Shown here in pieces: positions 7,607 through 53,153 of a stretch of 64,000 bases of DNA. Position 1 is the stretch's first letter, and every line of letters begins with the position of its first letter. A model generated the notes under the pieces. That model was not told the DNA's origin. It ran no database searches and was given only the letters and a program-made list of their open reading frames with translations. The translations under genes and the position numbers were made by a program. The stretch is from Ruegeria sp. 6PALISEP08 (GTDB taxonomy: Bacteria > Pseudomonadota > Alphaproteobacteria > Rhodobacterales > Rhodobacteraceae), in assembly GCF_001238295.1 (NCBI RefSeq), contig NZ_LGXZ01000010.1:62001-126000 (forward strand), given 5' to 3'.

Positions 7607-7621
7607 TCACTCCTGCCTAGG

Positions 7622-7960
7622 TTACGCATCTGGCGCGGACAGCGCGTCGTCCAGTGTTGAAAACAACCGGAAAACAGTATCCATGCGCGTCAGGCGAAAA
7701 ACTTTCTCGACCACTGGCTGCGGCCCGGCCAGATCCAGTTGCCGGTCTTTGCCCAGCTGCTTCATCGACGCCACAATGGCACCCAGACCGCTGGAATCGA
7801 TGAACTGAACGCCGGACAGATCCAGCACAACCCGATCTGCGCTGGTCTCGGTTTCCGAGCGCATGTCTTCCTTGAACTGAATGGCCATTGCGGCATCGAT
7901 CCGGTCGGAATGAACGGTGATTATCTGTGTTGCGCCGTTTGACGCGCTGGTCAGCCCCAT
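7622..7960 (-). CDS. STAS-domain anti-anti-sigma factor
   Basis: A 112-residue single STAS domain like SpoIIAA/RsbV. The phosphorylatable site is 'GVQFIDSSGLGAIV', where the second Ser of the DSSG motif is the usual acceptor. I choose the ATG at 7960 over the TTG at 7978 because GGAGG sits 11 bases before the ATG and would lie inside the longer version. It is first in a two-gene unit with the kinase and divergent from the thiolase gene. Confidence 0.9.
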   Translation of the reverse strand: MGLTSASNGATQIITVHSDRIDAAMAIQFKEDMRSETETSADRVVLDLSGVQFIDSSGLGAIVASMKQLGKDRQLDLAGPQPVVEKVFRLTRMDTVFRLFSTLDDALSAPDA

Positions 7961-49579: not shown

Positions 49580-50080
49580 ATGTCGCAGCTGGTTATCTAT
49601 GCCTTGCAAGTCGCAGGGGGAACGCTTGCCCTGACGTCGATGCCCGGACGCGGTGGTGATTACGGGGGTGATCTTGAAACGATTGCGGCATGGAAGCCGG
49701 GGCTTGTTGTTTCAATGACAACGGATGTCGAGATGCTTCAGCATGGGGCTCAGGATTTCGGCAGCGATATCCAAAGCCGCGCGAGCCGGTGGGTGCATCT
49801 GCCGATCGAAGACTTTGGTGCACCTACTGCAGCAGTTGAAGAGGCATGGCCCGGCGTCAGCGCCGCCGCCCGGCACGCCCTGGCTGGAGGAGGCCGGGTG
49901 CTGGTGCATTGTCGGGGCGGCTGCGGCAGGTCGGGGATGGTTGTCCTGAGGCTGATGGTCGAATGCGGCGAGCGGGCAGACAAGGCCCTTGAGCGTTTGC
50001 GGGCGTTGCGTCCCTGTGCCGTGGAAACAGATGCCCAACTGGCCTGGGCGGCACGGGAATTTCAGACTCAGGTCGTGTAG
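49580..50080 (+). CDS. Dual-specificity/tyrosine phosphatase-like protein
   Basis: A 166-residue cysteine phosphatase. The P-loop is 'VLVHCRGGCGRSGM' with nucleophile Cys111 and Arg117. The general acid is probably Asp78 in 'LPIEDFGAP'. The size fits the cyclin-phosphatase/DSP-like bacterial group, which act on phospho-tyrosine, phospho-serine or small phosphates. It converges on the riboswitch-controlled orphan gene two bases away. It is transcribed away from dnaX across a shared promoter region. Confidence 0.85.
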   Translation: MSQLVIYALQVAGGTLALTSMPGRGGDYGGDLETIAAWKPGLVVSMTTDVEMLQHGAQDFGSDIQSRASRWVHLPIEDFGAPTAAVEEAWPGVSAAARHALAGGGRVLVHCRGGCGRSGMVVLRLMVECGERADKALERLRALRPCAVETDAQLAWAAREFQTQVV

Positions 50081-50082
50081 TC

Positions 50083-50490
50083 TTAGGCCGAAAGATGTTC
50101 AGGCGCGTGCACGGGTTTGCGGGGCTGCAGCGCTACAACCTCGATTATCGCGCAGGGTGGGTCTGCAATGAGGCCGGACGGCAAGGTGGTGAACGTATTC
50201 CCAAAGATCAGATCGGCGTACGCGTTCAGGTCCTCGGGCTGAGCTTCAGACTGTGTGCCGCAAAAGATGCGAATTCTGTCTGATTGAGCTCGAATGGTTG
50301 CGTGGCACCCTTCCGCGCAATGCGCCAATTCACTGCCGCCATCAAACTCGAATTCGTCGCCTGTGGCCGCTGTGGCCTGAGTCATAGCCTCGGAAACCGA
50401 GCGCGCAAGTCGCGCCAAGGCGGGGCAGGTTTTGCCTGTCCGCTGACATACCGTTGCGCTGTATTCATGTGTCTTTGTCTTCCAGATCAT
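50083..50490 (-). CDS. Cys-rich orphan protein under a cobalamin riboswitch
   Basis: A 135-residue protein with no family I can name with confidence. Five cysteines (15, 22, 58, 62, 77), in 'VCQRTGKTCPAL', 'LAHCAEGCHATI' and 'IRIFCG', suggest metal or redox chemistry. The layout, including a late 'DLNAYADLIFGNTFTTLPSG', faintly recalls the predicted metal-binding DUF1636 family seen with cobalamin genes; this is weak. ATG 50490 has GGAGGG upstream. The gene is the only one downstream of the B12 riboswitch, since the next gene converges on it. Expression should fall when cobalamin is plentiful. Confidence 0.72.
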   Translation of the reverse strand: MIWKTKTHEYSATVCQRTGKTCPALARLARSVSEAMTQATAATGDEFEFDGGSELAHCAEGCHATIRAQSDRIRIFCGTQSEAQPEDLNAYADLIFGNTFTTLPSGLIADPPCAIIEVVALQPRKPVHAPEHLSA

Positions 50491-50589
50491 CCTGCGCCCT
50501 CCGCGCGTGTTGGACAGGAAGATCGGGTCAGGTGGGACGGCAAAGTGCAGTCAGGACCTGCCCGGACACCCCGCCCGAGTTTCGGTTTC

Positions 50590-50795
50590 AATTCCGATGG
50601 CAGGTCTCCTGACTTGCGGGTCTTGGCTTTGCCGACCTTCCCAGCCCTGGGGGCCAGTGGTGTTTTGGCATCGCTCACCGCTTACAGTTGCGGGGGCAGT
50701 CGCGGATTTGGTTTGCACCTGAATGACCAGGCTGAACCGCACCGTGTTCCCTTTTCATCCCGACCCCTTGTGGGGGACAGGAACCATCACACAAC
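50590..50795 (-). ncRNA. Cobalamin riboswitch
   Basis: Read on the minus strand, the segment has the AdoCbl riboswitch order: an AAGGGAAC..GGTGCGG start, 'CTGCCCCCGCAACTGTAAGCG', 'CCACTGG', 'GGGAAGG', 'AAGACCCGC' and the B12 box 'AGTCAGGAGACCTGCC' ending near 50599. About 100 bases separate it from the orphan-gene start, and no clear intrinsic terminator lies between. Control by hiding the ribosome-binding site is therefore likely. Confidence 0.95.
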
Positions 50796-50934
50796 CGCTA
50801 GCGTCTGACCCGGTGCCGAGTCAAGCTGATCTTTTCGCCCGACGTTTGGTCATGCTGGATGGGTGGAAAGTTCCCGCTTAGAGTCTTCACTATTGAAGGT
50901 AAGCAAGTCAATTTTCAGCGCAGGGTCAGGGATC

Positions 50935-52988: not shown

Positions 52989-53019
52989 AAAGCCCTCCTG
53001 CGGCTAACGTTCATTAAGT

Positions 53020-53113
53020 GAGAGGTTGGACATCGACCCAAGCGGGGCTCGTTGTGGCTGCTTCCTTCCGGACCTGACCAGGTTGGCGAGGCGCTCGCCC
53101 GCGCCAACCTCTC
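53020..53113 (-). ncRNA. ffs: Signal recognition particle RNA (4.5S-type)
   Basis: The minus strand holds the universal SRP core, 'GGTCAGGTCCGGAAGGAAGCAGCC', forming the Ffh-binding hairpin. The outer stem GAGAGGTTGG pairs with CCAACCTCTC at the ends, which sets a 94-base transcript. The RNA binds Ffh to target membrane proteins cotranslationally. It lies upstream of rsgA, between rsgA and cpdB. Confidence 0.95.
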
Positions 53114-53153
53114 GACTCTGGATATAGGGAAGGCAGAGGAAAAAGACAACCCG

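Follow-up and report, generated by a model that had tools for sequence, protein, structure and literature searches.

What does a cobalamin riboswitch control when the single gene behind it resembles nothing in the known cobalamin repertoire? Such a locus occurs in Ruegeria sp. 6PALISEP08, in a window of 64,000 nucleotides (contig NZ_LGXZ01000010.1, positions 62,001 to 126,000). Roseobacters, Ruegeria among them, supply B12 in marine waters, and the aerobic-route helpers that handle cobalt and corrinoid are incompletely known. The locus shares its aptamer family and its physiological logic with established cobalamin riboswitch regulons, represented here by CbiM and cobW-cobN operons; BtuB and CbtAB are further members of such regulons. 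The gene in the window differs in that neither Pfam nor NCBIfam matches it to any known transporter, enzyme or B12-independent isozyme.

The leader and its single gene

A cmscan search of the whole window against all families placed an RF00174 match at 50803-50582 on the minus strand (123.3 bits, E 1.7e-30; gathering score, 31.5 bits). Model positions 1-189 of 189 are covered. The complete minus-strand B12 riboswitch proposed in an earlier, sequence-only reading thus passes the covariance model easily; its aptamer limit had been set too short, at 50795, and the match extends 8 nt further, to 50803. The features of the unit are:

50582..50803, minus strand: cobalamin riboswitch aptamer, full length (RF00174; aligned with 18 relatives)
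50557..50579, minus strand: conserved post-aptamer element CTCGGGCGGGGTGTCCGGGCAGG, largely invariant across 19 aligned leaders
50494..50506, minus strand: Shine-Dalgarno GGAGG in a GCGC/GCGC hairpin, ahead of the start codon (consensus fold)
50083..50490, minus strand: gene of 135 codons; product predicted to be cytosolic, Cys15, Cys22, Cys58 and Cys62 invariant; its clade is distantly related to DUF1636 (ORF and clade alignment)

The leader between aptamer and start codon spans 91 nt. Its post-aptamer element presumably forms part of the expression platform; by a loose pattern, the core of this element is present in 10 of the 20 riboswitch leaders tested (that of the window included) and absent from the genome's other four riboswitch leaders. 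The GCGC-GGAGG-GCGC hairpin, which the consensus fold shows as paired and which is identical in all 19 leaders, is the presumed site of translational control. Because its pairs never vary, covariation lends the hairpin no support. Changes on both sides are seen at 10 of 79 predicted leader pairs, none of these in the GGAGG hairpin, and hence we infer, rather than observe, translational repression by B12. The direction of control, with B12 repressing, would likewise follow from what is known of the riboswitch family.

The ORF itself (50490-50083, minus strand) starts with ATG, with GGAGG 7 nt upstream. A convergent ORF (49580-50080, plus strand), whose product is protein-phosphatase-like (PF22784, 35.7 bits), ends 2 nt from the end of the riboswitch gene. 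Since this downstream neighbour lies on the plus strand and ends at 50080, the riboswitch unit consists of one gene, as had been proposed. The protein contains six cysteines (15, 22, 58, 62, 77, and 113) and not the five first counted.

The initial judgement that this is not a recognisable cobalamin gene has held: the protein has no known-family match in Pfam or NCBIfam, and no significant sequence match in these collections or in the PDB. A PHROGs search with the single protein as query was equally unrewarding, and a plasmid collection returned two matches of about 32% identity, from Tritonibacter mobilis. (A DUF4379 zinc-finger match, at E 0.11, was below the cut-off and was dropped.) No signal peptide was seen by eye, so the protein is presumably cytosolic.

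A clade and its riboswitches

The distribution of the gene was followed with a clade profile built from a 30-row alignment (A1). Within the genus, this profile finds the gene in 54 of 54 genomes. Such retention, together with a dN of 0.084 against a dS of 0.375 in comparison with the L023 gene (dN/dS about 0.22), argues that the gene is really coding. Among 394 family genomes, 64 match at E <= 0.001 and 20 carry clade copies, defined by a score of at least 98.9 bits; the next score is 75.4 bits, and the cut was chosen after this gap had been seen. Nine of the 11 lower-scoring matches that were aligned are PF07845 (DUF1636) hits. At class level, matches are seen in 6 of 385 genomes. One of the six, G345, from another alphaproteobacterial family, has a partial copy scoring 93.5 bits, here called clade-like and kept outside the count of 20. 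Close relatives also occur on 17 named contigs: 16 from Ruegeria and one from Rhodobacteraceae bacterium KLH11.

A B12 riboswitch lies ahead of the gene in 19 of the 20 clade copies from the 394 family genomes. Thirteen copies were checked by genome search, and 12 of them start 85-138 nt behind an RF00174 match on the same strand (by coordinate difference); the remaining seven copies all have RF00174 just upstream, as does the clade-like copy of G345. RF00174 also precedes the clade gene on 17 of 17 named contigs, which may overlap in species with the other genomes counted. The riboswitch check covers the 20 clade copies and the named contigs, for a gene more widely present among the 54 genus genomes. 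Had homologues been common and never associated with B12 riboswitches or cobalt genes, the first interpretation would have failed; in these samples the close homologues are instead nearly always found with such riboswitches.

The sole clade copy of the 20 that is not behind a B12 riboswitch, that of G040 (L111:6964-7203, plus strand), has no RF00174 around it in a permissive scan at E <= 1. Its genome holds one RF00174 elsewhere and no PF07845 hit. At L150:2499-2678 (minus strand), a weak second B12 riboswitch match of 37.5 bits lies upstream of a strong one of 129.9 bits.

The wider DUF1636 family also is riboswitch-linked, much less strictly than the clade: 18 of 40 DUF1636 genes lie no more than 600 nt behind a riboswitch (41 family genomes, 83 riboswitches listed), a count that rests on two genome searches, one with stricter filters. 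In the genome of the window, one of the five RF00174 riboswitches heads the clade gene, and two head CbiM cobalt-uptake genes (PF01891). Another stands before a DUF1636 gene, after which come an ABC ATPase, a PF01497 binding protein and, further on, a permease. The last heads a series of DUF1636, CobW (TIGR02475), CobN, and CobG genes (CobG at 233.9 bits, where the cut-off is 234.8). Three of the five riboswitches therefore head genes of the clade/DUF1636 superfamily, and the company that these genes keep suggests cobalt and corrinoid, on the uptake side and the synthesis side alike. (Gene calls are simple ORF picks, which are poor in high-GC genomes, and the names dnaX, recR, ABC ATPase, and permease are our reading of ORFs unless a family match is given.)

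Of the 20 clade genomes, 12 have the gene near dnaX (our reading), as does the window, and these dnaX-side housekeeping neighbours are uninformative on function or B12. A phosphatase-like ORF similar to that at 49580-50080 stands beside several relatives with this arrangement. The small SRP RNA (RF00169) also lies near the gene, at 53016-53114 in the window (minus strand, 56.8 bits), and each of the 17 named contigs carries one as well. In G051, G153, and G040, the clade gene was seen to have no B12 or cobalt gene beside it.

In a minority of genomes, B12, cobalt or metal uptake genes do lie beside the clade gene. In G194, DUF1289/DUF6925, ExbB, ExbD, ExbD, and TonB genes come after it in the same orientation. 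An opposing set, behind another riboswitch, comprises a BtuB-like receptor, PF01497, FecCD, and an ABC ATPase; CbiZ adjoins. The best NCBIfam match of the receptor is the TonB-dependent B12 receptor, at 249 bits, below the cut-off of 599.7. In G345, the clade gene has a DUF1289/DUF6925 gene on one side and, on the other, CbiZ together with a FecCD permease of which the C-terminal half is present. G782 has a PF01497 (BtuF-type) gene that starts 3 nt after the clade gene, and a PF01497 protein is likewise encoded after a DUF1636 gene in G125. The clade gene of G091 has a second riboswitch and an ABC transport set behind it. Finally, a ZnuA-type transporter adjoins the clade gene in both G782 and G186, which makes a link to zinc or manganese possible.

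Several of these loci bear further observations. In G194 and G345, the gene for a protein with DUF1289 and DUF6925 (L175:10794-11780 and L173:4598-5503, both minus strand), which comes after the clade gene and likewise behind the B12 riboswitch, is possibly B12-linked too. G345 has a second B12 riboswitch (L173:1209-1412, minus strand, 102.8 bits) ahead of what we read as a Rieske-type oxygenase ORF, with a homocysteine S-methyltransferase (PF02574) a few kb away. The two G091 riboswitches (L109:6916-7109 and 7613-7815, minus strand), about 500 nt apart, flank the clade gene, and the one after it precedes the ABC uptake set.

DUF1636 kinship and the four cysteines

The sequence-only reading had raised a metal-binding relative of DUF1636 as one possibility. 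Profile-profile comparison shows that the clade is indeed a distant relative of DUF1636, although PF07845 misses the protein itself. Against a 20-row DUF1636 profile, the clade profile gives a probability of 97.5 and E 6.7e-12; with hhalign, 32 DUF1636 rows give 92.9 and E 3.7e-7. Twelve rows found by the clade profile itself, mostly PF07845 hits, give E 2.3e-18 (hhalign; this set includes the mis-extracted L091, nine of the other 11 rows are PF07845 hits, and L096 and L098 are not among the matches listed). The values of 6.7e-12 and 2.3e-18 indicate common descent within a DUF1636 superfamily in the wide sense. In direct searches, the clade profile picks up DUF1636 genes with scores reaching 72.2 bits (E 1.4e-19).

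Searches in the other direction yield less. PF07845 does not match the window protein in its own genome at E <= 10. DUF1636 is matched by 11 of 30 clade members at E <= 1, the best at 8.3e-4; when seven clade members were scanned against PF07845, four scored 14.1-16.3 bits and three gave nothing, and the curated score of 31.6 bits was not reached. A midpoint-rooted tree of 72 rows separates clade and DUF1636 with 100/99 support on each side, its inner forks being backed by few columns. (It contains 29 of the 30 clade rows, because two shared a name, and leaves out the mis-extracted L091.) On sequence grounds, the clade is a distinct sister branch of DUF1636, and not a member by Pfam's own test.

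What the two groups share is profile homology, partial control by B12 riboswitches, and a C-x3-C pair in the second half. The C-x2-C start of DUF1636, in contrast, occurs in 4 of 38 clade rows, whereas a C-x6-C pair occurs in all 38. By eye, the clade also lacks the tail common to many DUF1636 rows. A search of the PDB with DUF1636 retrieves a solved member, 9jn8 'ORF378' (E 2.7e-39); the clade profile meets a chance match alone (E 0.65).

DUF1636 has been assigned to the thioredoxin-like [2Fe-2S] ferredoxins, of which it keeps three of the four ligand cysteines, and a redox role has been predicted for it from sequence (PMC4520260, which under O30786 concerns the DUF1636 family). The available part of PMC12828279 names the family as well. 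In the literature searched, no experimental role for DUF1636 was found, nor any report that joins DUF1636 or ORF378 with cobalamin or that describes 9jn8. One cobalamin-riboswitch homologue is listed among R. pomeroyi small RNAs in the available part of PMC4809877, where the clade gene is not shown, and neither clade gene nor DUF1636 is mentioned in the accessible portions of PMC8123684, PMC7689651, PMC7895991, and PMC3621897. The clade is undescribed, and what is new here is the clade itself, its near-strict riboswitch linkage, its fourth cysteine, and the B12-uptake neighbourhoods.

That fourth cysteine deserves attention. In the 30-row clade alignment, only C15, C22, C58, and C62 are invariant. 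The pattern C-x6-C-x34..36-C-x3-C is found in 38 of 38 clade sequences (the 30 and eight more), with a gap of exactly 35 residues in 36. NuoE-type sequences from the same family show C-x4-C-x35-C-x3-C in 28 of 28 cases (28 of the 30 loci found); in NuoE these cysteines are the [2Fe-2S] ligands. The clade therefore has the same 35-residue gap and C-x3-C pair as the thioredoxin-like [2Fe-2S] ferredoxins and NuoE (PF01257; 1f37, 1m2a) but differs in the first pair, C-x6-C in place of C-x4-C. Four candidate ligand cysteines whose second pair is C-x3-C, the arrangement looked for in PF01257, are present in all 38 clade sequences. The C-x6-C pair may supply the fourth cysteine that DUF1636 is without.

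Recognition at the level of family and fold is another matter. Pfam gives no match to PF01257, and no alignment was obtained between the clade profile and NuoE; a DUF1636 set aligns weakly with NuoE (probability 15.9), and DUF1636 against 1f37 gives E 0.42. A predicted model places a helix (23-43) and then a strand (48-55) between the two cysteine pairs. Two predicted models (pLDDT 83.9 and 85.5) have the order strand-helix-strand-strand-strand-helix, with all Foldseek matches at E > 0.1. Against the PDB nothing was significant (best E 0.11 and 0.18), and a thioredoxin-like ferredoxin and 9jn8 were both absent from the best 50 of 449 and 457 matches. The structure searches with these two predicted models are not counted as support for the ferredoxin reading.

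A probable role in cobalt or corrinoid acquisition

Nearly all close relatives lie behind the same switch, and a few lie beside B12 or metal uptake genes; the protein is thus probably an undescribed helper for obtaining cobalt or B12 when B12 is scarce. The original proposal that the riboswitch marks a cobalt- or B12-related protein gains support from the clade-wide linkage and from the DUF1636 kinship, and some role with cobalt or corrinoid is very probable.

The best overall explanation, which at nearly even odds is still tentative, is a B12-repressed one-gene unit encoding a cytosolic thiol protein, probably with a [2Fe-2S] cluster, that serves cobalt or corrinoid acquisition. When cobalamin is plentiful, the fold of the leader RNA would block expression; when it is scarce, the protein would be made. 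A single metal centre is most likely bound by the four invariant cysteines; it would probably be a [2Fe-2S] cluster, arranged as in the thioredoxin-like ferredoxins. The protein would then pass electrons to an incoming corrinoid or cobalt, or strip ligands from it, and so bring it into a usable form; the simplest task common to its partners would be at the cobalt atom, which might be reduced, freed of ligands, or carried. Cytosolic place, cluster, and redox task are each deduced, and they differ in strength: that the cysteines bind an Fe-S cluster is slightly favoured, whereas a redox task on the corrinoid is a more speculative suggestion.

Could the four cysteines instead hold Co(II) or Zn(II) directly, at a single site, in a cobalt metallochaperone or buffer that hands its metal to the cobaltochelatase route or takes it from an uptake system? 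Such a carrier would suit the DUF1636 gene that precedes cobW and cobN in the genome of the window, as it would the two CbiM genes in the same riboswitch regulon and the ZnuA-type transporters beside the clade gene in two genomes. Moreover, CobW itself acquires Co(II) and carries a CxCC motif, according to the accessible text of PMC7895991. However, the neighbours in G194, G345, and G782 (BtuB-like, CbiZ, and PF01497) point to preformed corrinoid and not to free cobalt, and the cysteines are spaced much as in a [2Fe-2S] ferredoxin. An Fe-S or thiol redox role is favoured; a Co(II) carrier, although rather unlikely, is its close rival.

The G194 locus, where the clade gene comes first behind the riboswitch, ahead of DUF1289/DUF6925, exbB, exbD, exbD, and tonB, brings to mind a regulatory or assembly partner of a TonB-ExbBD or BtuCDF-type transporter, in which the cysteines would be structural. 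This is improbable: where the gene has its dnaX-side place, in 12 of 20 genomes, it has no such genes for neighbours, and a DUF1636 paralogue sits in a biosynthetic operon. A decaying or accidental passenger, a relic that kept its riboswitch, would fit the few family genomes that carry the gene (20 of 394) but is contradicted by its presence in all 54 genus genomes, its dN/dS, and its invariant cysteines and leader, and can hardly be credited.

A clade marked by riboswitches and kept in all 54 genus genomes examined, with BtuB/TonB-like, CbiZ, and PF01497 links in single relatives, offers a handle on the function of the whole superfamily. Conceivably, and with appreciable doubt, the gene founds an undescribed, B12-repressed and probably Fe-S family that makes imported or newly inserted cobalt or corrinoid usable, with DUF1636 as its wider kin. 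If true, this would fill in an accessory step so far missing from the aerobic route by which marine roseobacters acquire B12.
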